From Spirochaeta thermophila DSM 6192 (GTDB lineage Bacteria > Spirochaetota > Spirochaetia > Winmispirales > Winmispiraceae): a stretch of 64,000 nucleotides of DNA. Numbering within the stretch: position 1 is the stretch's first letter; each line of letters begins with the position of its first letter. The notes beneath the pieces are model-generated. The model had not been told where the DNA came from, made no database searches, and worked only from the letters and a program-made list of their open reading frames with translations. Shown piece after piece: positions 2,417-48,249 of this stretch. The stretch spans positions 2,063,501 to 2,127,500 of the forward strand of contig NC_014484.1 of the NCBI RefSeq assembly GCF_000147075.1. Reading direction: 5' to 3'. A program made the translations under genes and the position numbers.

Positions 2417-4054
2417 CTACTTCCCCTTGTAGCCGTAGAACTGCTCCAGTTTGGCCTTACGCTCGTCGATGATGGCCTGCCCTCCGGAGCTGAGATAATC
2501 CCTCATACCCTGATCGAACACCCTGTCGAAGTCCGACGGCTTGGCGATGACGGACTGGACCAGGAGGTTGTTGCGCTTCTCGGAGAGGGCGGGACCCATC
2601 CCCTCTTCCGCCTTGATCTCTCCCACGTTGAACCGCTTGATCAGGCGAAGATCTTTCGACCAGAGATCGAGGGAGCGCACGATGAACTCGGGCTCCACCT
2701 CGGGATACCCGAGGGCCATGGACTTCCTGGTGATCTCCGGATCGCCGAGATCGAGACCGTTGAGGGTGATGGTGTAGTCGTAGTTGAAGGGGCCGTGCAT
2801 CGCAAGCTCACCCTCGACCTTGAGCATCCGGATGCTCCCATCGGCCAGCACCTCGTGGTGCACGCCCTCCTGTCCGATCTGGAGGAAGCGCCGCTTCGCG
2901 GGATCGCTGATCCAGTTCACGTACAGGAGCGATGCGAGCGGTTCCTTGTTGGAAGCGGGGAAGAAGATCTTGCGGTCAACCGGGATTCCGGAGTACTTCC
3001 TGTACTTGCCGGCGTCGTTCTTGAAGGTGTCGATCGCCACGAACGCCGCATCGGGCCCCACGATCCTCTTCAGGTTCGCGTGGATCGAGTCCTCACCACC
3101 TCGGTAGGGGTAGTCGTGGTTCTGTATGAACGACCCCACGTACCCGGCCTTCGCGAGGTTGTCAGCGGTCGGATCACCCACGGGATAGAGCGGGAAGTCC
3201 TTCCAGATGAGGCCCTCGTTGTACCACTTGTTGAGGAGCCGGATGGCCTCCTTGGTTCCCGGGTGGAGGAGGTTCCTGTCGTCGAATCCATAGATGTAGT
3301 ACTCCTCGTCGGAGATCTTGTCCGGGATGAACGACCAGATGAGGTTCCGCGCATACCAGGCCACGTCCACCGTGAGGAGGAAGGGGATCATCTTGTCCGC
3401 ATCCTTGCCCAGGAGCGTCTCCGCATTGTCGCGGAAGGCCCTGATCGTCCTCTCGAACTCCTGACGGGTCGTGGGTTCCTTGAGACCGAGCTTCTTGAGC
3501 CAGTCCTGGCGGATGAAGGTCACGGTGCCGGTGATCGGCTTACGGATCCCCTCGATGGCCCACAGGGTGCCGGTGACCGGATCCTGATCGAAGTAGATGA
3601 ACTCGTCACCCAGGAGATCCCAGAGAGCCTTCAACTGGGGCTTGTACTGGTCGAGCAGCGGAGCCAGATCCAACACACCACCCATGTTCGCATAGGTCTG
3701 GATGGTGGGATAGTCATAGGTGTAACACACGTCAGGGGCCTCACCCGCAGCGAGCAGGTTGTTGAGCACCTGCACCTCCTGCCAGCGCGGTACGGGCTTG
3801 AAGATCACTTCCACGTTGTGATCCCGGAGCATCCCTTCCTTGATGTAGTCGGTCCAGATGTTGTCGTCGGCGGGGGTACCACCACGATCCCAGATCTCCA
3901 CCGTGATCGTCCGCGTCGTGGTGAACCGGCCGTTCACCAGCTCATCCGTGCCCGCCGTCGGCGCGGCCTTGCCGCCCTTCTCCCCTTGTCCTTCCGCGAA
4001 GGCGAAGGAGACCGCCGTGAGGAGGCACAGAAGCACGATCAATGCCTTTTTCAT
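2417..4054 (-). CDS. Extracellular sugar-binding protein of an LplABC-type ABC importer
   Basis: A 545-residue family-1 solute-binding protein resembling the LplA/YtcQ group that delivers oligosaccharides to two-permease importers. An N-terminal signal peptide (hydrophobic residues ~4-20 ending in FAFA) is followed by a flexible EGQGEKGG stretch; there is no lipobox cysteine, so it is probably periplasmic. A strong AGGAGG ribosome site precedes the ATG. It is the last gene of the permease-permease-binding protein operon. A hairpin and a possible internal promoter in the 59-nt gap upstream could raise its expression. The neighbouring GH2 enzyme suggests a beta-linked oligosaccharide ligand. 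The ATPase is not encoded here, so a shared MsmK-type ATPase encoded elsewhere is likely. Confidence 0.87.
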   Translation of the reverse strand: MKKALIVLLCLLTAVSFAFAEGQGEKGGKAAPTAGTDELVNGRFTTTRTITVEIWDRGGTPADDNIWTDYIKEGMLRDHNVEVIFKPVPRWQEVQVLNNLLAAGEAPDVCYTYDYPTIQTYANMGGVLDLAPLLDQYKPQLKALWDLLGDEFIYFDQDPVTGTLWAIEGIRKPITGTVTFIRQDWLKKLGLKEPTTRQEFERTIRAFRDNAETLLGKDADKMIPFLLTVDVAWYARNLIWSFIPDKISDEEYYIYGFDDRNLLHPGTKEAIRLLNKWYNEGLIWKDFPLYPVGDPTADNLAKAGYVGSFIQNHDYPYRGGEDSIHANLKRIVGPDAAFVAIDTFKNDAGKYRKYSGIPVDRKIFFPASNKEPLASLLYVNWISDPAKRRFLQIGQEGVHHEVLADGSIRMLKVEGELAMHGPFNYDYTITLNGLDLGDPEITRKSMALGYPEVEPEFIVRSLDLWSKDLRLIKRFNVGEIKAEEGMGPALSEKRNNLLVQSVIAKPSDFDRVFDQGMRDYLSSGGQAIIDERKAKLEQFYGYKGK

Positions 4055-4081
4055 GGTATCCTCCTATATAAGATGATATAA

Positions 4082-4101
4082 ACCGCACACAACGGTGCGG
4101 T
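4082..4101 (-). terminator. Intercistronic hairpin before the binding-protein gene
   Basis: ACCGCAC and GTGCGGT form a 7-bp stem with a 6-nt loop, followed on the minus strand by TTTATAT. It could be a partial terminator or an mRNA-stabilising stem; a TTGTGT/TATATA pair nearby may also be an internal promoter. Confidence 0.35.
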
Positions 4102-4113
4102 GGAACGCCCCTC

Positions 4114-4983
4114 CTATTCCTTGATGGACCCCAGTGTCACCCCCTGGATGAAGTAACGCTGGAGCCACGGATACACCAGGAGTATCGGGACCGTGGCGAA
4201 CATGACTGCGGCCGCCTTGAGACTCTCGCTGAGGCCGAGCGGGATGTTCCCCTCGAGGGAGTAGGTCTCCACCTCGCTCACCGACTGGATGAGGAAGTAG
4301 AGGAGGAGGGAGATGGGATAGAACTCGCGCTTGTTCATGAACATGAGGGCATCGGAATAGGTGTTCCACCTCCCTACCGCGTAGAAGAGCGCGAGGGTGG
4401 CGATGATCGGCAGGGAGAGCGGCAGGTAGATGCTCACGAGTATGCGCACCGGGTTCGCACCGTCCATCTCCGCCGACTCCCGGAGGCTCGTCGGTATCGT
4501 ATAGAAGTAGTTCCTCATGAGGATGATGTTGAAGACGCTCAGGCAGTAGGGGACGATGAGCACGAGGGGGTGATTCAGGAGCCCGATGTCCTTGAGCAGC
4601 AGGTACATGGGGATGGTACCCGCATTGAAGTACATGGTGAACAGGATGAGGGACATGATCACGCTCCGTCCCTTGAGATGATCGTAGGTGAGCGGGTAGG
4701 CGCAGATCGCCGTCATGAAGAGCGAGAGCATGGTCCCGGCCGCGGTGATGATGACCGTCCAGACGAAGGCCCACGTGTACTTCGTATCCTCGAGTACGAG
4801 GCGGTAGGCTTCGAAGTTGAGCCCCTTCGGCCAGAGCCCTACCTCTCCCCTCACCAGATATTCCGAATCGCTCAGAGACCTTGCGAGCAGATTGACCATG
4901 GGCAGGAGACACACGACGATGACCAGGATGCTCACTGCCACGGCAAAGTAGTCGAGCCATCTCGAATCCCGTGACGTTCTCAT
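4114..4983 (-). CDS. ABC sugar importer permease, LplC/YtcP type
   Basis: A 289-residue inner-membrane permease of the MalG-like fold (BPD_transp_1). About six hydrophobic segments are visible, starting with WLDYFAVAVSILVIVVCLLP. The cytoplasmic EAA loop reads ESAEMDGANPVRILVSIYLP (~residues 175-194), the site that docks on the ATPase. I chose the ATG at 4983 because GGGGAGG lies 7 nt upstream; the GTG at 4989 is too close to that ribosome site. It is 14 bp downstream of the LplB-type permease and is clearly in the same operon. Confidence 0.88.
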   Translation of the reverse strand: MRTSRDSRWLDYFAVAVSILVIVVCLLPMVNLLARSLSDSEYLVRGEVGLWPKGLNFEAYRLVLEDTKYTWAFVWTVIITAAGTMLSLFMTAICAYPLTYDHLKGRSVIMSLILFTMYFNAGTIPMYLLLKDIGLLNHPLVLIVPYCLSVFNIILMRNYFYTIPTSLRESAEMDGANPVRILVSIYLPLSLPIIATLALFYAVGRWNTYSDALMFMNKREFYPISLLLYFLIQSVSEVETYSLEGNIPLGLSESLKAAAVMFATVPILLVYPWLQRYFIQGVTLGSIKE

Positions 4984-4997
4984 CTTCACACCTCCCC

Positions 4998-5942
4998 TCA
5001 GAGAATACCGCGCTCACCGAACCGCTTGGCCAGACGATCGGCCAGCACCAGGAGCATCACGTTGATGACGGACTGGAACAGACCCACCGCGGTGGTGAGG
5101 GAGAACTGGAGTCCCCGGATGCCGTAGTTGTACACGAAGATGGCAATCACATCCGAGACGTCCTTCACCAACGGATTGCGGAGCGCATAGGGTCTGTCGA
5201 AGTAGCTCCCCATGAGATGTCCCAGGGAGAGGATGAGCAGGATCACTATGGTGGGACGTATTCCGGGCAGGGTGACGTGCCAGATACGGCGGAGCCGCCC
5301 GGCCCCGTCTATGGCCGCGGCCTCGTAGAGCTCGGGGTTGATGCTCGTCATGGCCGCGAGATAGATGATGGTGTTCCATCCCACGCTCTGCCAGATCCCG
5401 AGGACCACATAGGTGCCGACCCAGTAGTTCGGGTCGTTGAGGAAGGGTATCGGCCCGGCTCCCAGCTTCTTCAGCCAGATGTTGAGGAGACCCGTATTGG
5501 GGGCGAGGAGCTGGAGGGCCATCCCGGCGATGATCACCCATGAAAGGAAGTGGGGCATGTAGGCGATGGTCTGGGTGACCCTCTTGAAGCGGTGGTACGG
5601 GAGCTCGTTCAGGATGAGGGCCAGGATGATGGGCGCCGGGAACCCGAAGAGGAGATCGAGGGAGTTGAGCATGAGGGTGTTGCGGAGCGCGAGGAGGAAG
5701 TCCCTGTTCTTGAAGGCCTTTATGAAGTACTCGAACCCGTGGTTGTCGGCCCAGGGCATCTCCCAGGGGCTCTTCACTATGCTGTACTTCTTGAAGGCGA
5801 TCTGGATATAGGTCATAGGGATGTACTTGAAGATGAAGAAGTACAGCATCGGCAAGAGGAGCATGAGATAGAGCGTCCAGTACTTGCTCAGATAGGTCCG
5901 CAGATCCCTCGTCTTCAGTGCTATACTCGGCGTTCTGTTCAT
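4998..5942 (-). CDS. ABC sugar importer permease, LplB type; probable leaderless start
   Basis: A 314-residue inner-membrane permease, partner of the LplC-type protein. The N-terminus (WTLYLMLLLPMLYFFIFKYI, then PMTYIQIAFKKY) is typical of LplB/YtcP-like proteins, and the EAA loop is YEAAAIDGAGRLRRIWHVTL. The start at 5942 matches family N-termini, whereas the upstream in-frame extension is not protein-like. No ribosome site precedes this ATG, and the TTGACA-N18-TATACT promoter is placed so that transcription should begin at the A of the ATG. First gene of the importer operon and divergent from the GH2 glycosidase. Confidence 0.87.
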   Translation of the reverse strand: MNRTPSIALKTRDLRTYLSKYWTLYLMLLLPMLYFFIFKYIPMTYIQIAFKKYSIVKSPWEMPWADNHGFEYFIKAFKNRDFLLALRNTLMLNSLDLLFGFPAPIILALILNELPYHRFKRVTQTIAYMPHFLSWVIIAGMALQLLAPNTGLLNIWLKKLGAGPIPFLNDPNYWVGTYVVLGIWQSVGWNTIIYLAAMTSINPELYEAAAIDGAGRLRRIWHVTLPGIRPTIVILLILSLGHLMGSYFDRPYALRNPLVKDVSDVIAIFVYNYGIRGLQFSLTTAVGLFQSVINVMLLVLADRLAKRFGERGIL

Positions 5943-5948
5943 GTCACC

Positions 5949-5998
5949 AGTATAGTACCAGGTTTTCGATCCTGTCAATAAAAAATTTTTTAAAATAC
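5949..5998 (-). promoter_or_regulatory. Strong promoter with UP-like element for the sugar importer operon
   Basis: On the minus strand an almost pure A/T tract (5979-5998) sits directly upstream of TTGACA (5973-5978), then an 18-bp spacer and TATACT (5949-5954). Predicted start is 5942, the first base of the permease start codon. The A/T tract fits an alpha-CTD UP element. Confidence 0.7.
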
Positions 5999-6325
5999 CT
6001 TTAACAAGTCTGTCGAAACAATACCGGCTTCTCCCTCTCCCTCCTCCTCTCCGTCCCTCGCCCTGCCGGGCACGCGGACAGGGGACGTCCCTCGTGTGCA
6101 ACTTCATCCACTATAAAAATCTAACGCTCCGGCTCTCCGGGCGTGGGAAGGACACGGCCGCCTTCCCGGAAAGAGGATCGACTGACAATAGGACAACCCG
6201 ATGACCGTGTAACCCTTGTGGGGGCCCGGCCCGCCTGCGAGGTGCCTGCAGGGTTGTGCGGACATCTCCTTTCTGGTGTAATATCCCCCATCCACGAAGG
6301 TCCACAAAGGGAGTATATACCACCC
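5999..6325 (+). other. Intergenic region upstream of the GH2 glycosidase
   Basis: No convincing gene. It holds an inverted repeat GGGAAGG/CCTTCCC flanking GGCCGC (~6150-6175), a distant dyad AACCCT/AGGGTT (6210-6256) enclosing a GC-rich stretch, and a candidate -10 TAATAT (6279-6284) with TTGTGC (6254-6259) at a long 19-bp spacing. The stems could be operator sites or a folded leader. Confidence 0.35.
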
Positions 6326-9300
6326 ATGAACCGGATGCAACTTTTCAACAACGACTGGGAGTTCGCCGTGACACCGCCCGGCACCGAGGAGTGGCACGGG
6401 CTTTCCTTCCGCCCGGTGGAGATCCCCCACGACTGGCTCATCGCTGACAGTACGCGTCTCTACGAGGACTCGACAGGCTGGTACAGGAAGATCCTCGTCT
6501 GGGAGGGGCGAGCGACGCACGCGTCCCTCTACTTCGAGGGAGTGTACATGGACAGCACCCTCTACGTGAACGGGAGGGAGGCCGGCAACTGGAAATACGG
6601 GTACTCCTCGTTCGAGCACGAGATCACCCCCTTTCTCAGGGAGGGTGAGAACGAGCTCGTGGTGAAGGTGGTGCACCGGGCCCCCAACAGCAGATGGTAC
6701 TCGGGAGCGGGAATCTATCGGAACGTGTGGCTCATCCTCCGGGGAACGAGCTACATCCCCACCCATGGGGTGTACGTGACAGTGCGAAAAGGCGAAGAGA
6801 CGTGGAGCGTGGAGATCGAGACCGAGCTCCACCTCACGCAGGAGGCGGTCCTCGAGCACACCCTGTGGTACCGGAGGAAACCGGTCTCCTCCTGCCGGAA
6901 GATGGTCTCAAGGGACACCTCCCTCGACGCCTCCTCTCTCGAGGTACGAGATCCTCTCCTGTGGAGCCCCGAGGGGCCTCACCTCTACACCCTTCTCACC
7001 CGCCTCTACGACGGCGAAGGAACCATCATCGAGGAAATTCCCACCCCCGTGGGGTTCCGCCACCTCGTCTTTCATCCCCATCGCGGCCTGCTGGTGAACG
7101 GGGTGCCCACCAAGCTCCACGGCACCTGCGAACACCACGACCTCGGCGCCCTGGGCGCGGTCTTCAATCGGGCGGCGATGCGCCACCGGCTCTCCCTCCT
7201 CAAGTCGATGGGGGTGAACGCCCTCCGGACGGCCCACAACATGCCGGCACCCGATCTCATGCATCTCGCCGACGAGATGGGATTCTTCGTGGTGTCCGAG
7301 GCCTTCGACATGTGGGAACGGCCCAAGACGCGATACGACTACGCACGATTCTTCCCCGAGTGGTACGAAAGGGACGTGGCGAGCTGGGTGCGGAGGGACA
7401 GGAACCATCCCTCCCTCCTCATGTGGAGCATCGGCAACGAAATCTACGACACCCACGTGAGCGAGCGGGGAGAGGAACTCACCCGCCTCCTCGCCGCCGA
7501 GGTGCGGAAGCACGACCCCAAGGGGAACGCCCCCGTCACCATGGGGTCGAACTACATGCCCTGGGAGGGGGCCCAGCGCTGCGCCGATATCCTCAAGGTG
7601 ATAGGTTACAACTACGGTGAGGCCTACTACCACGAACACCATGAGGCCCACCCCGATTGGGTCATCTACGGGAGCGAGACCGCCTCGGTGGTCCAGAGCC
7701 GGGGGGTATACCACTTCCCCTTCGACTGCACGATCCTGGCGGAGGAAGACGAGCAGTGCTCGGCACTGGGCAACAGCTCTACGAGCTGGGGGGCTCCTTC
7801 GCATGAGGCGTGTATCGCCGCCGACAGGGACGCACCCTTCTCCCTGGGACACTTCATCTGGAGCGGGTTCGACTACCTGGGGGAACCCACGCCCTATCAT
7901 ACCAAGAACTCGTATTTCGGTCAGATCGACACTGCGGGGTTCCCTAAGGATTCCTTCTATATATACAAAGCGGCATGGACCGACTACCGACGTGATCCCT
8001 TCGTCCACATCTTCCCCTACTGGGACTGGAACCCCGGGCAACTGATCGACGTGAGGGTGTGTTCCAACGCCCCCCGGATCGCCCTCTACCTCAACGGCCG
8101 CCTCATCGGGACCAAAGACATAGACCATCAGCACGGCACCGAGCAGACAGGGTGGTGGAAGATCCCCTACGAACCCGGCGAGCTCGTGGCCCTCGCCTAC
8201 GACGACGAGGGCAGGTGCGTGGCACGAGCGGTCCGCAGGTCCTTCGGGGATCCCGCCCGGCTCAGGCTCACCCCCTCACGGGAGTTTATCGAAGCCGACG
8301 GCCGGGACGTCGTCTTCGTGACCATAGAGATCCTCGATGCGGAGGGGAACCTCGTGGAGAATGCCTCCAGCCGGGTGCGGGTGGAGGTTCGGGGGGCGGG
8401 ACGCCTCCTCGGGCTCGACAACGGCGACAGCACCGACTACGATTCGTACCATGCCACGAGCAGGCGTCTCTTCAACGGGAAACTCATGGCCCTCATCGGC
8501 GCCACCACGGAGACGGGCCCCGTCGAGATGGTCGTCCACTCCAAGGACCTCCCCCCCGCGCGTCTCATCCTCACCGCCGTCCCCTCGGAGAGGACCGACC
8601 TCGACTGCATCTCGGTGATCCATCGGGCGGAGGAGAAACCCTGCCGCACCGGCCGGGAAGACGAGATCCCGGTGAGAAAGATCGAACTCACGGTGATCGA
8701 GGGGGCGCGGACGCTCACCCCCGACTCCCCCTCGGTACGCATCGAGGCGCGACTCCTTCCGGAGAACACCTCGTACCGCGAGGTGGAATGGAAGGCGGTC
8801 ACCCCCAACGGCATCGAGACCCCCCTCGCCCTCGTCCGGCCGGAAGGTCTCGAGGCCGTCGTCACCGCCCGCGGCGACGGGAGTTTCCTCGTACGGTGTA
8901 CCAGCAGAAACGGCACCGACACGGTACGTCTCATCTCCCAGATCGAGTGCACGGCCGAGGGATTCGGCCGACTCCACAAGGATCCGTACTCCTTCATCTC
9001 CGCAGGGCTCTACGACGACAGCAACGGGAAAGTCACGCCGGGGAACGAGAAAGGCATCGCCACCGCCCGGGACGGGATCACCATAGTGGGATTCACCGAC
9101 CTCGACTTCGGACCCGACGGGTCGGACACCATCACCATCCCCATCTTCGCCCTGAGTGCCGACCCCTACCGGCTCCAGATCTGGCGGGGCCGTCCCGAAG
9201 CCCCGGAGAGCGAGCTTCTCGCAGACGTGATCTATCGGAAAGACCCCGTCTGGAACGTGTATCAGGAGGCCCGCTATCGGCTCAGACGAAGGCTCCGGGG

Positions 9301-18240: not shown

Positions 18241-18269
18241 TTGACTACCGGGGAGGATTTCTATATACT
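18241..18269 (+). promoter_or_regulatory. carD-ispD-ispF promoter
   Basis: TTGACT (18241-18246), 17 bp, TATACT (18264-18269). Predicted start 18276, giving a 3-nt leader before the carD ATG. Confidence 0.7.
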
Positions 18270-18278
18270 TGGGACACC

Positions 18279-18932
18279 ATGACCAGCAGGAACACGTCCG
18301 CCCAACCCGAACCCCAGTTCAAGGTGCACGATCACGTGGTTTACCCACTCCAGGGAGTGGGTGAGGTGGTACGGATCGAGGAAAGGGAGTTCAAGGGAGA
18401 GGGACTCCTCTACTACGTGATCTACATCCCGGTCTCCGACATGACGGTGATGGTTCCTGTCCACAAGGCCGCGGAGATAGGCATCAGACCCATCGTATCC
18501 AGGGAGGAAGCTCTCGAAGCCCTCGACTTCATCTCCGAGAACCCCCAGGCAGGCCCCACCGACTGGAAGACCCGCTACCAGATGAACCTGGATCTCCTCA
18601 AGAAGGGAAGCGTGATGGACATCGCCCGCGTGGTCCGGGCCCTCTACTACCGAAGCAAGATAAAGGAGCTGCCCATCCTGGAACGCAAGCTCTTCGACAA
18701 CGCCCTCCGCATTCTGGTGGACGAGATATCCTTTGCCCTCGAGATCTCCGCGAAAGAAGTGGAGGCCCGCATCTTCCAGCAACTCGAACAGGAGAGCGAG
18801 CCCCTCGAGGAAGAAGAAGAGGACCTATTCGAGGAAGAGGACGAAGATCTGAATTTCGAAGAAGACGAGGAAGAGGACGGGGACGACATGGAGGACGCAG
18901 ACCTGGACGAAGAGGACGATTCCGAGGAATGA
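18279..18932 (+). CDS. carD: CarD/CdnL-family RNA polymerase-binding regulator with acidic tail
   Basis: A 217-residue transcription regulator. Residues ~14-70 form the Tudor-like RNA polymerase interaction domain (VHDHVVYPLQGVGEVVRIEE), which contacts the beta subunit. Residues ~75-170 are the helical DNA-binding domain (DWKTRYQMNLDLLKKGS, ALYYRSKIKELPILERKLFD), which stabilises open promoter complexes in characterised homologues. Unusually, the last ~45 residues are almost entirely Asp and Glu. It overlaps ispD by 4 bp (ATGA), and ispD overlaps ispF the same way, so translation is coupled; mycobacteria show the same gene order. The leader is predicted to be only 3 nt. A perfect 8-bp hairpin lies inside the coding region at 18343-18362. 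Confidence 0.92.
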   Translation: MTSRNTSAQPEPQFKVHDHVVYPLQGVGEVVRIEEREFKGEGLLYYVIYIPVSDMTVMVPVHKAAEIGIRPIVSREEALEALDFISENPQAGPTDWKTRYQMNLDLLKKGSVMDIARVVRALYYRSKIKELPILERKLFDNALRILVDEISFALEISAKEVEARIFQQLEQESEPLEEEEEDLFEEEDEDLNFEEDEEEDGDDMEDADLDEEDDSEE

Positions 18933-39276: not shown

Positions 39277-39305
39277 TTGAAAACACCCTCCCCGCGTCCT
39301 ATACT
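39277..39305 (+). promoter_or_regulatory. Promoter of the diguanylate cyclase gene
   Basis: TTGAAA (39277-39282), 17 bp, TATACT (39300-39305). Predicted start 39312, 3 nt before the ATG at 39315; no ribosome site. Confidence 0.7.
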
Positions 39306-39314
39306 ATAGACGAC

Positions 39315-42300
39315 ATGTACACGATACGACAACCGGAGGCACCTTCCGCACGAGGCATCCCCCTCTCACGCTCCCTCACCTTCAGGATATTCACCACCCA
39401 CGTGGTGAGCGTACTCCTGGTACTGGGGTTGATGATATTCCTCAGCTCCCTCTTCTTCAAAAACTTCACCACCCGGATGGCCGAGGAGGAGGCCCTCGAG
39501 GAGAGCCGGCGCCTCGTGGAAACCGTAGAGCAGGTGGGAAAGACACTCATACTCAATGCGCTCAAAGAGGAGGTGGACCGCGCCCTCCTCCTCGTACGGC
39601 AGACGGCCCGCCACGTGGAAGAGGGCATCGTCTCCGAAGGAGAGGCACAGAGGACGGTACGCTCGGCCCTCCGCTCGTGGAAGATCGCCCGTGAAGGCTA
39701 CTTCGTGATCCTCGACTCGGAGGGGAATATCCTGCTCCACCCTTCCCCCGAGGTGGAGGGGACCAACCAGCTCTCCTACTGGGTCACTGCGTATCAGACC
39801 CGGGTGAAGCGCGGGTATCTCGAATACGACCGCCAGAATCCCGGAGAGCCTGGCCCCAGGAAGAAGGTCCTCTACATGGACTACTACGCCCCCTGGGACT
39901 GGATCGTGACCGCCACCGCGTATAAAGAAGAGTTCGGCGAACTCGTCAACCTCACCCTCCTGTCCACCCTCATCTCCACCCTCTCCGGCGATACCGGTAT
40001 GCAGGTCTTCATCCTGGACGGATCTCCGCTCCCCCTCGCATCCACGGACCCCGCCCCGGAAAAAGGGCTCCTCCAGGAACTCACCTCTCTTGAAGAAGAT
40101 GGGGGATTCTCCTGGAGGACGTACCAGGGGGTGCAATGGGCCCTGGCCTGGAGGATCATCCCCGACTTCGGCTGGAAGGTGGTGGTGCTCCAACGCCCCC
40201 TCCTCCAGGAGCGGATCTACTCCTCGTTCCTCCTCTTCTCGCTCGGTATCCTGGGTCTCGCCTTCATCCTCTCCCTTGGACTCTCCATCTACTTCTACTT
40301 CTCCCTCACCAGGCCCATTCTGAGGGCCATCCCCGTGCTCCGCCTCGCCACCGCGGGCAAGCTCGACCTCAGGCTCACGGACCTGCCTTCGAACGAACTC
40401 GGCCTCCTCGGGGCCTACTTCAACACCCTCATGGACTCGCTCCAGCGTACCATGGAGGAGAAGGACTCCCTGGTGGAACGGGCCGCCTTCCTCGCCCGGT
40501 TCCCCCAGGAGAACCCCAACCCCGTGGTCTTCGTGAACGAACAGGGCAGGATCACCTACGCCAACCGGAGCGCCGCCCGCATCTTCGGGCTCCCCGAAGG
40601 CTTCTGCGACGAAGGGCCCCCGCCTCCCCTTAAGGGGATCATCCACCAGGCGGGACCCGAACTCCAGGACATCAAGGTGGGCGACCGGTGGTACTCGTTC
40701 ATCGCCTCCCCCAGCACCAGTCCCCGGGGCACCTTCTACTTCGGCAGGGAGACCACGCGGGAGCGGGAGTACCGCACCTCCCTCCTCCTCTTCCGGTGGA
40801 TCTTCGAACACGCCTATGAGGGCATGGTCGTCACCGACAAAGAGGGGAACATCGAGATGGTGAACCCCGCCTTCACCGAGATCACCGGCTACTCCGAGGA
40901 AGAAGTGATAGGAAAGAATCTCCGCATCCTCAAATCCGATCATCACCCTCCCGAATTCTTTGAGAGGATGTGGCACGACCTCACCACAAAGGGGTGGTGG
41001 GCCGACGAGATATGGAACCGGAGGAAGTCGGGTGAGGTGTATCCCGAGTGGCTCTCCATCTCCCGGTTCACCGATACCGAGGGGAAGGTCCACTACGTGG
41101 GCATCTTCCACGAGATCTCCAAGCAGAAGGAGCTGGAGGAGAGGTTACGGTACCTCGCCTATCATGATGCCCTCACCGATCTCCCCAACCGGTTCCTCCT
41201 CGAAGACAGGCTCGACCGGGAGTGCGCCCGTGCACGGAGGGAAGGGAAGAAGGTGGGCCTCATCTTCGTCGACCTGGACAACTTCAAACAGGTGAACGAC
41301 ACCTTCGGTCACCGCACCGGCGACCTCTACCTGGTACACGTGGCCCGCCTCCTCAGAGAGGCATGCCGCGAGGTGGACACGGTGGCACGAATCGCCGGTG
41401 ACGAGTTCGTCATCATGCTCCCAGGGCTCTCCCAGAAGGCCTTCGCCCTCTCGGTGCTCGAACGCATATTCAGGGTCCTTCGGGAGCAACCCTTCCAGCA
41501 CGGGAACACCACCCTGGAGGTCTCGCTCAGTGCAGGCCTCGCCTTCTTCCCGGACGACGGTGGGAGCGTCTCGGAGATCCTCTCGAGGGCCGACATTGCC
41601 CTCTATCGGGCGAAGCGACAGGGCAAGAACCAGTACGCAGTCTTCCAGAGGGAAGACCAGAAGGTCCTCGAGGAACAGCTCGGCCGGTACGACCTTCTCA
41701 GGACGGCACTCGCCGGAAGAACGGTGAAGGTCGACTGGGAACCCTGGGAGGACCGAACCGGACGCATCGCCTACCTCGAGGCCCTCCTCTCCTGCGAGAA
41801 GGACCCCTCCCTCAACCCCGGCGCGATACTCACCATGGCCGAAGAGGTGAACCTTGGGGGAACCGTGGGGGAACTCATCCTGGAGGGCATGGCCACCCTC
41901 CTCCACGGTGCCGGGGAAGGGGCCATCCCCCCGGACGCCATTCCGCCCCTGGTCGCCCGGATCCCACCCTCCCTCCTCTTCGATCAGTCGTTCCTCTCCA
42001 CGCTGAGGGACATGGGGGAGGCCTACCACCTTCCTCCCGGCCACCTCATCCTCCTCCTCCCCTTCCGGTCAGGCATGCTCCCCGAACATCTCGTACGCGC
42101 GGTGGAGGAGGTACGGAGCATGGGGATCACCGTGGGTCCCCCTGGGCCGTGGATCCCTCTCGAACCGAGGGACGACGCCATCCACCTCCCCTTCGTCATC
42201 CTGCCCTATCCGCGCCTCCTCGCCTTCAGGCATGAGGTGGAAGGGAACGAGTCCTCCCTCACGGCCCTCATGCACCTGTTGCGGTACAGGAACCAGAAGG

Positions 42301-42455
42301 TGGTGGTGGAAGGAGTGGGCGACGAGGGAGGTCTCTCCTGGGTATGGGGGCTGGGAGCCGACCTGGCCGCAGGCCCCGCCGTCCACGGCAGGCTTCCTGC
42401 AGAGCAGGTCCTCCCGCTCCTCAGGGCGCACCTGGGGGAAAAGGGAGAGCCCTAG
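39315..42455 (+). CDS. Membrane diguanylate cyclase with Cache, PAS, GGDEF and degenerate EAL domains
   Basis: A 1046-residue c-di-GMP signalling protein. Order: TM helix (~25-50), periplasmic Cache-like sensor (~55-315, GYFVILDSEGNILLHP), TM helix (~325-350), HAMP (~350-400), weak PAS (~415-480), canonical PAS (~505-620), GGDEF (~625-790), EAL-like (~800-1046). The GGDEF active loop is AGDEF (694-698), an accepted active variant, with an I-site RxxD at 685-688, five residues before it, for product inhibition. The EAL domain keeps EALL (~820) and a late VVVEGVGDEGG, but the metal-binding Asn, ExT and DDFG motifs are gone, so phosphodiesterase activity is unlikely. The ATG at 39315 lacks a ribosome site. 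Confidence 0.9.
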   Translation: MYTIRQPEAPSARGIPLSRSLTFRIFTTHVVSVLLVLGLMIFLSSLFFKNFTTRMAEEEALEESRRLVETVEQVGKTLILNALKEEVDRALLLVRQTARHVEEGIVSEGEAQRTVRSALRSWKIAREGYFVILDSEGNILLHPSPEVEGTNQLSYWVTAYQTRVKRGYLEYDRQNPGEPGPRKKVLYMDYYAPWDWIVTATAYKEEFGELVNLTLLSTLISTLSGDTGMQVFILDGSPLPLASTDPAPEKGLLQELTSLEEDGGFSWRTYQGVQWALAWRIIPDFGWKVVVLQRPLLQERIYSSFLLFSLGILGLAFILSLGLSIYFYFSLTRPILRAIPVLRLATAGKLDLRLTDLPSNELGLLGAYFNTLMDSLQRTMEEKDSLVERAAFLARFPQENPNPVVFVNEQGRITYANRSAARIFGLPEGFCDEGPPPPLKGIIHQAGPELQDIKVGDRWYSFIASPSTSPRGTFYFGRETTREREYRTSLLLFRWIFEHAYEGMVVTDKEGNIEMVNPAFTEITGYSEEEVIGKNLRILKSDHHPPEFFERMWHDLTTKGWWADEIWNRRKSGEVYPEWLSISRFTDTEGKVHYVGIFHEISKQKELEERLRYLAYHDALTDLPNRFLLEDRLDRECARARREGKKVGLIFVDLDNFKQVNDTFGHRTGDLYLVHVARLLREACREVDTVARIAGDEFVIMLPGLSQKAFALSVLERIFRVLREQPFQHGNTTLEVSLSAGLAFFPDDGGSVSEILSRADIALYRAKRQGKNQYAVFQREDQKVLEEQLGRYDLLRTALAGRTVKVDWEPWEDRTGRIAYLEALLSCEKDPSLNPGAILTMAEEVNLGGTVGELILEGMATLLHGAGEGAIPPDAIPPLVARIPPSLLFDQSFLSTLRDMGEAYHLPPGHLILLLPFRSGMLPEHLVRAVEEVRSMGITVGPPGPWIPLEPRDDAIHLPFVILPYPRLLAFRHEVEGNESSLTALMHLLRYRNQKVVVEGVGDEGGLSWVWGLGADLAAGPAVHGRLPAEQVLPLLRAHLGEKGEP

Positions 42456-46941: not shown

Positions 46942-46970
46942 TTGACGTTGCGGGGAAACAGGCCCATAAT
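46942..46970 (+). promoter_or_regulatory. Promoter of the SH3 lipoprotein gene
   Basis: TTGACG (46942-46947), 17 bp, CATAAT (46965-46970). Predicted start 46977, one base before ATG 46978. Confidence 0.6.
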
Positions 46971-46977
46971 CCTTTTC

Positions 46978-48249
46978 ATGATGCGACGAGCCGCTTTGTT
47001 CTTCCTTGCGCTGAGCGTGGCATGGTTCGTATCCTCCTGCGGATCCCGCACCATAGGCTACGCGGTGGTCCTCTGGTCGCCCGATGAGACGAAACTCCCT
47101 ACCGGGACGATCATCCCCGTGTTCAAGGAGTCGCAGGTCTACGACACCTACACGGTGATGATGGGTGAGGAGCTCGTCGACGTGCCGCGGTGGCAGCTCG
47201 CCCTCCATCCCTCGCGAGAAGAGGCCGAGAAGGCCGTGCAGGAGATGGGGGAGTACCGGACCTCGTTCGCCACCGCCGTGGTGAACGCCGCACGGGTGCG
47301 CAAAGGCCCGGGGACCGACCAGGAGGTGGTCTACAAACTCGCGGAGGGCGAGCGGGTGAAGATCCTCGCCCCGCCCGTGGTGGAGGAAGAGAGCGGCCGT
47401 CTGTGGTTCAAGGTGTACACAACGGGCGGGATCACGGGCTTCTGTGAGGCCTCGCTCCTCAAGGTGGGCACGGGGGAGAGGCAGGACCGGTCCCCGCCGG
47501 CGGGGGGGGCCGAGAGGCTCACCCTCCTCCAGAAGGGGCCCTGGCGCCCTCTCTACTTCAAGGAGATGAAGGAGCGGGGGAGGATCGACCTCTACCGGGT
47601 GAGCCCTGCCTACGGCTTCTTCGTCGATACCGAGACGCGCACCATCACCGTCTCCGTGCCCGGCAGGAGCACGCGGTTCTCGTACGAGCGGTTCCTCCCC
47701 ATCTCCGACTCGGAGTTCGTCCCCGAAGGGGCCCCGGTGCGCATCTTCTTCCGCGATCAGGAGACGATCGCGGTCCAGTATCCCTACGGCACGAGGACCT
47801 ACACCGATCTCTTCTGCCTCTTCCCCGACGATGTGAACCTGCTCATCTCCGAGGAGATGGCGCGGAGGGAGAGCGCCTACCGGGAGCTCATCGCCCCCGG
47901 CTCGAGGCTGGTGAGCAGCTCGTACGGTATCCTCACCCTCAATCCCGACAAGACCTTCCGCTGGGAGCGGCCCGGCACCCTCAAGGGCAGGTACATACCC
48001 GCCTCGGCGGCCCCCACGGGGACGATAGAACTCTCGGTGCTCCTGGGGGAGGAACTCGAGTCCAGGTACGACGGGGTGCTCGTCTTCCGGTTCGACAACA
48101 CCTCCTCGGAGGAGAAGGTCTACTTCCTCTACAAGAAGGAGCCGGGAAGCATCAGGCTCTTCTACCTCCCCGCCTCCTCGGTGGTGCGCAATGTCGCCGT
48201 GAGCGAGCCGAGGGTCCCCGTGGTCCTCTACTTCTCGTACATGGAGTAG
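46978..48249 (+). CDS. SH3-domain lipoprotein of unknown function
   Basis: A 423-residue exported lipoprotein: signal with lipobox VSSC (Cys ~21). A bacterial SH3 domain lies at ~95-165 (TAVVNAARVRKGPGTDQEVV, then WFKVYTTGGITGFCEASLL), a fold that often binds cell-wall peptides. The remaining C-terminal ~250 residues are beta-rich and unrecognised. Tandem ATG codons at 46978 and 46981 follow a predicted 1-nt leader without a ribosome site. It is followed 2 bp later by the ABC-F gene. Role likely at the envelope; not determined. Confidence 0.75.
   Translation: MMRRAALFFLALSVAWFVSSCGSRTIGYAVVLWSPDETKLPTGTIIPVFKESQVYDTYTVMMGEELVDVPRWQLALHPSREEAEKAVQEMGEYRTSFATAVVNAARVRKGPGTDQEVVYKLAEGERVKILAPPVVEEESGRLWFKVYTTGGITGFCEASLLKVGTGERQDRSPPAGGAERLTLLQKGPWRPLYFKEMKERGRIDLYRVSPAYGFFVDTETRTITVSVPGRSTRFSYERFLPISDSEFVPEGAPVRIFFRDQETIAVQYPYGTRTYTDLFCLFPDDVNLLISEEMARRESAYRELIAPGSRLVSSSYGILTLNPDKTFRWERPGTLKGRYIPASAAPTGTIELSVLLGEELESRYDGVLVFRFDNTSSEEKVYFLYKKEPGSIRLFYLPASSVVRNVAVSEPRVPVVLYFSYME

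Follow-up and report, generated by a model that had tools for sequence, protein, structure and literature searches.

A sigma-70-type promoter abutting the start codon of a sugar-type ABC transporter operon in Spirochaeta thermophila, and its predicted leaderless transcript

The gene for permease 1 heads a putative three-gene ABC transporter operon on the minus strand of Spirochaeta thermophila DSM 6192. It is preceded by what is very probably a sigma-70-type promoter, from which transcription of the permease 1, permease 2 and binding-protein genes would begin at the AUG or at most ~3 nt before it. The leaderless start of permease 1 is well supported, because the distance from the promoter to the ATG is conserved in six orthologues and a Shine-Dalgarno (SD) sequence is absent. 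The window is the whole 64,000-nt stretch of DNA that was analysed (G000:C1:2063501-2127500); the genome, G000, consists of one contig of 2,472,645 bp. Positions below are those of the window.

Promoter and operon architecture

The promoter occupies 5940-5998 and is read on the minus strand. A pure A/T tract of 19 bp (5979..5997), the candidate UP element, is followed by the -35 box TTGACA (5973..5978), which matches the consensus at all six positions, an 18-bp spacer (5955..5972), the -10 box TATACT (5949..5954; five of six), the six nucleotides GGTGAC (5943..5948) and the ATG of permease 1 (5940..5942), with a predicted +1 at A5942 or 1-3 nt upstream. GGTGAC lies outside the transcript if +1 is A5942. 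The 3' part of the spacer, TGGTAC, falls within the conserved block TGnTAnTATACTnGT and, together with the bases that follow it on the minus strand, contains an overlapping extended -10 box, TGG-TACTAT. The minus-strand sequence thus confirms the stack of A/T tract, TTGACA, 18 bp and TATACT described in an earlier note, except that the tract was given there as 20 bp and measures 19 bp plus the TT of the -35 box.

The two boxes match the consensus at 11 of 12 positions with 18-bp spacing, which is above chance. When both strands of the window were scanned with spacers of 16-18 bp, nine promoters had at least 10 of 12 matches, compared with a mean of 0.85 (maximum 2) in 20 Markov-1 control runs, and two had 11 of 12, compared with a mean of 0.05 (maximum 1). 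The second 11/12 promoter (minus strand, position 31) has 12 A/T in the 20 bp upstream, versus 19 of 20 at the permease promoter. The description of the permease promoter as the most complete in the window is therefore fair, as it is the only one of the two that carries an A/T tract. An inverted-repeat search of 5930-6330 for a palindromic operator revealed nothing convincing at the promoter except the A/T palindrome.

The assignment of the A/T tract as a UP element, also made in that note, is plausible because an A-rich block near the -35 box is found in all six orthologues and the contact residues of RpoA are kept. The tract lies directly 5' of the -35 box, and counting the TT of that box the pure A/T run is 21 bp. 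This ties for the longest among the 13 pure A/T runs of at least 15 bp counted in 864 kb of sampled genome sequence (61.9% GC), two of which reach 21 bp. The RpoA encoded in the genome has a C-terminal domain carrying VRSSNCLK and NFGKKS, which match the residues that contact UP-element DNA.

Permease 1 (4998..5942, minus strand) is a sugar-type ABC transporter permease of 314 aa that matches PF00528 (70.6 bits). It is followed by permease 2 (4114..4989, minus strand; PF00528), which has the SD sequence GGGGAGG (4991..4997) and starts at GTG 4989 or at ATG 4983, the latter with the better SD spacing. The last gene of the putative operon encodes an extracellular solute-binding protein (2417..4054, minus strand; PF01547) and has the SD sequence AGGAGG (4060..4065). 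Since the second and third genes have these SD sequences, leaderless initiation would be needed for the head gene alone. The interval between permease 2 and the binding-protein gene contains a perfect hairpin of 6 bp, CCGCAC-CGTTGT-GTGCGG (4083-4100, minus strand), with a T-rich stretch after it. This hairpin could act as a weak terminator or stabilise the RNA, and could lead to uneven expression.

A GH2 enzyme gene with its ATG at 6326 is divergent from the operon, and a GH10 gene is present in the window. No NCBIfam model scored above its cut-off for the operon proteins, which gives them no specific name. The fold families of the permease pair and the binding protein are compatible with a putative aldouronate/uronate ABC transporter; the neighbours are GH2, GH10 and, in relatives, UxuA and GH8.

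In the mechanism proposed here, RNA polymerase would start transcription at A5942, or 1-3 nt upstream by way of the overlapping TGn-TAnTAT box, and its alpha C-terminal domain would bind the A/T tract as a UP element. Ribosomes would initiate at the AUG that forms the 5' terminus of the RNA, where there is almost no predicted structure, and genes 2 and 3 would be translated from ordinary SD sites. The first 40 nt have a predicted folding energy of -1.9 kcal/mol versus a mean of -7.0 for SD-led genes (n=209), of which 3.3% are as weak. The strong transcription and 70S-type initiation proposed in the earlier note are predictions, as is stimulation by the UP element.

Conservation of the layout and the position of the start

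An orthologue search of 394 genomes of the class (E <= 1e-100) yielded 16 loci in 15 genomes. The layout TTGACA-N18-TATACT-N6/7-ATG was found in four of these, in G000, G001, G221 and G300. In the remaining 12 loci the scan placed no promoter-like sequence 10 nt or less from a candidate start, and most have SD-like purine runs as judged by eye. Two more loci with the layout were identified among 80 homologues from named genomes, one from a Treponema sp. MAG (L097) and one from a Gracilinema caldarium MAG (L100). All six loci therefore have TTGACA, an 18-bp spacer and TATACT in common. The -10 box is 6 nt from the ATG here, with only GGTGAC between them and hence no room for an SD in a leaderless transcript, and 6 or 7 nt from it across the six loci; in the four orthologues beyond the genus the distance is 7 nt. 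The flanks are unalignable beyond the genus despite the conserved promoter layout, and the G000 spacer shares 8-11 of its 18 bases with each of the four loci beyond the genus. An A-rich block (AAAAATT or AAAATTTTT) occurs shortly 5' of the -35 box in all six loci, and 14-19 of the 20 bp upstream of that box are A/T.

The 80 homologues, which are largely from Clostridia and other Firmicutes, were also surveyed for SD sequences. This survey is permissive, as the best of all candidate starts was taken and no control was used; it found AGGAGG, GGAGG, AGGAG, GAGG, GGAG or AGGA in 60 homologues, GGGG only in 14 and none of these in six, two of which are the leaderless loci L097 and L100. Most homologues carry an SD, and the leaderless layout is most simply read as a property of a subset of spirochaetes. 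The operon provides a clean case in which orthologous operon-head genes appear to lack a leader in some lineages and to be SD-led elsewhere.

Codon statistics and the N-termini of the orthologues agree with ATG 5942 as the start of permease 1. The reading frame is open 5' of this codon as far as ATG 6107. A start at ATG 6107, which would give a protein of 369 aa, was rejected since the extension is not codon-like, scoring -0.15 per codon versus 0.48 in the gene; the lowest 55-codon stretch within the permease 1 gene scores 0.30. Differences between G000 and G001 at the three codon positions number 3/1/2 in the upstream extension versus 4/5/25 in the gene, and there is no third-position bias in the extension. 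Additionally, G000 and G001 show no differences across the 56 bp of 5998-5943, compared with six in the preceding 109 bp, which is weak evidence by itself. A start internal to the gene would give the RNA a normal leader, and sequence alone is no proof of start codons; however, no further in-frame start occurs until 78 nt inside the gene (offset 84 from the -10 box), within the protein region shared by the orthologues, and that start has no SD before it, which makes this reading highly improbable.

The position of +1 relative to ATG 5942 depends on which -10 box is used. With the extended box TGG-TACTAT, the leader would be only 1-5 nt long and +1 would lie at about 5945 or 5944. Its TGn-TAnTAT register is kept in six of six orthologues, but TACTAT matches the consensus at only four of six positions and requires a 15-bp spacer, whereas TATACT matches at five with 18 bp, and we consider its use rather doubtful. 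A slightly longer transcript could also use GGTGA weakly as an SD, since GGTGA before the ATG matches the outer part of the SD, the complement of the 16S tail. It is improbable that the gene has an ordinary leadered transcript from a main promoter farther upstream, with 5978-5949 as a minor one. The open upstream frame and a second TTGACA ~38 bp upstream in G001 would fit such a transcript. However, among minus-strand promoters with at least 9 of 12 matches in 5979-9000 there is none but that at 7924, which falls within the divergent GH2 gene. Near the ATG, the GGTGA immediately before it is the sole SD-like run, and the unit conserved among the relatives is the same promoter at the same distance. 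Transcription from the TATACT promoter is the preferred reading. Here the earlier note, which placed +1 exactly at the A of the ATG, holds for the leaderless start, with its conserved distance and lack of an SD, and is too precise in its "exactly": A5942 and positions up to ~3 nt upstream are indistinguishable in the sequence, giving a predicted leader of 0-3 nt.

A conserved promoter element and recurrence of the arrangement

The unusual part of this promoter is a conserved element that spans the spacer, the -10 box and the start and that also precedes uxuA in one relative. G000, G001, G221 and G300 each contain a single copy of TGnTAnTATACTnGT, always at the permease promoter. The version in the relatives, CTAATATACTAGTATCCATG, has a second copy in G300, where the same predicted leaderless promoter stands before uxuA (L195, G300:C10, 10010-10049, plus strand). 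In G221, uxuA is located 3' of the binding-protein gene, and genes for a GH8 enzyme and a polysaccharide deacetylase are upstream of the operon. With up to three mismatches allowed, the relatives' element was found in five places in the four genomes: the permease promoters of G221 and G300, uxuA of G300 and two others. The latter two were judged to be chance matches and not regulon members because their ATG opens only 8-10 codons. The same search gave no match to the relatives' version in G000 or G001. The uxuA gene of G000 is in a different place from the permease operon and is SD-led, which counts against a shared regulon in this genome.

The spacer and the surroundings of the -10 box are conserved beyond what sigma needs, which suggests an operator overlapping the promoter, perhaps that of a regulator of uronate or xylan-sugar use. 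As the element is shared with uxuA and the neighbours include uxuA, GH8 and GH10, we infer that the operon is a transporter for uronates or glucuronoxylan sugars with such a promoter-overlapping operator. A further proposal is put forward tentatively, as a possibility on the lower side of even: the ~25-bp element from TGnTAnTATACTnGT to the ATG may serve at once as -10 box, operator of a uronate regulator and translation start, and be used by the transporter operon and also by uxuA in one relative. Repression would then be locked to leaderless initiation, and the arrangement would have replaced an SD-led layout in some spirochaetes.

The earlier note implied that a zero-length leader is an oddity, which is unsupported because the arrangement recurs in the genome and the class and is known from the phylum. 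TTGACA-N16-18-TATAMT occurs 24 times in the genome and its reversed form does not occur. In six of the 24, an ORF of at least 130 aa begins with ATG or GTG 6-7 nt past the -10 box; promoter L044, with an ATG at 7 nt that opens only 64 aa, was left out of the six. Promoters with at least 9 of 12 matches were paired with start codons at offsets of 0-45 in two samples of the genome, sample 1 of 464 kb (313 genes) and sample 2 of 400 kb (288 genes). The window lies in sample 1, so the permease promoter is counted once in its own statistic. Start codons fell 6-10 nt past the promoter in 16 of 50 pairs in sample 1 and 11 of 58 in sample 2, compared with means of 1.58 (maximum 6) and 1.33 (maximum 4) for shuffled motifs (24 controls per sample). 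At a threshold of at least 10 of 12 matches, the numbers are 10 of 21 in sample 1 and just 3 of 27 in sample 2. The 16 pairs of sample 1 represent 13 distinct promoters, as three are paired with two starts each; these 13 and the 11 of sample 2 correspond to ~4% of 601 genes, a raw figure that includes chance matches.

In 60 genomes of the class, TTGACA-N16-18-TANAMT is followed by ATG at 6-8 nt 455 times versus 184 times at 12-14 nt, counting every ATG with or without an open frame. An excess at 6-8 nt is found in 48 genomes, seven have fewer and five are equal. The excess is very strong in G025 (30 vs 7), G033 (28 vs 5), G045 (33 vs 5), G012 (14 vs 1) and G055 (14 vs 0).

Three other genes on the plus strand of the window have similar promoters. 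A CarD-family gene (18241-18932; PF21095, PF02559) has a 10/12 promoter with the -10 box only 9 nt before its ATG, so that the mRNA of this CarD-like transcription factor may have almost no leader. A GGDEF/EAL/PAS/Cache gene (39277-42455; ATG 39315) also has a 10/12 promoter with its -10 box 9 nt before the ATG. An SH3_3-domain gene (46942-48249) has the leaderless-like arrangement TTGACG-17-CATAAT-7 nt-ATG, with a second in-frame ATG immediately after the first.

Comparison with known systems

A search of the literature on leaderless spirochaete or Treponema genes and on transcription starts of Spirochaeta thermophila found no report on the permease gene. In start-site annotation of such genomes, -10 boxes should be checked as well as SD sequences. 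Leptospira belongs to the same phylum as the present genome. A dRNA-seq study of Leptospira interrogans reports that the primary transcription start is the translational start in 184 genes at 30 degrees C and 170 genes at 37 degrees C, and that ~440 genes have a leader of less than 10 nt (PMC5243855). Because leaderless mRNAs are already mapped there, the permease would be a further case of a kind of gene known in the phylum. Additionally, a genome-level prediction gives leaderless genes in six of 18 spirochaete genomes, with an average of 3.9% (PMC3160421).

The gene setting resembles the aldouronate utilisation cluster of Paenibacillus sp. JDR-2, where a sugar ABC transporter likewise accompanies genes for xylan and glucuronate use (PMC4765114); on the present side the setting consists of GH10 in the window and of GH8 and uxuA beside an orthologous operon. 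This likeness is one of gene setting, and the substrate of the present transporter is a prediction. The promoter resembles those of Deinococcus-Thermus, where the -10 motif is typically ~6-7 bp before the ORF and gives leaderless mRNA (PMC12340547); however, most such genes there lack a classical -35 box, whereas that of the permease promoter is perfect, and they amount to about one third of ORFs versus ~4% of the sampled genes here at the threshold used. In Leptospira, the dRNA-seq study found no E. coli-like sigma-70 motif (PMC5243855), whereas the permease has a near-consensus promoter and an A/T tract. The present case would extend the picture of leaderless genes beyond Leptospira to xylan-associated spirochaetes whose sigma-70 promoters are near consensus.
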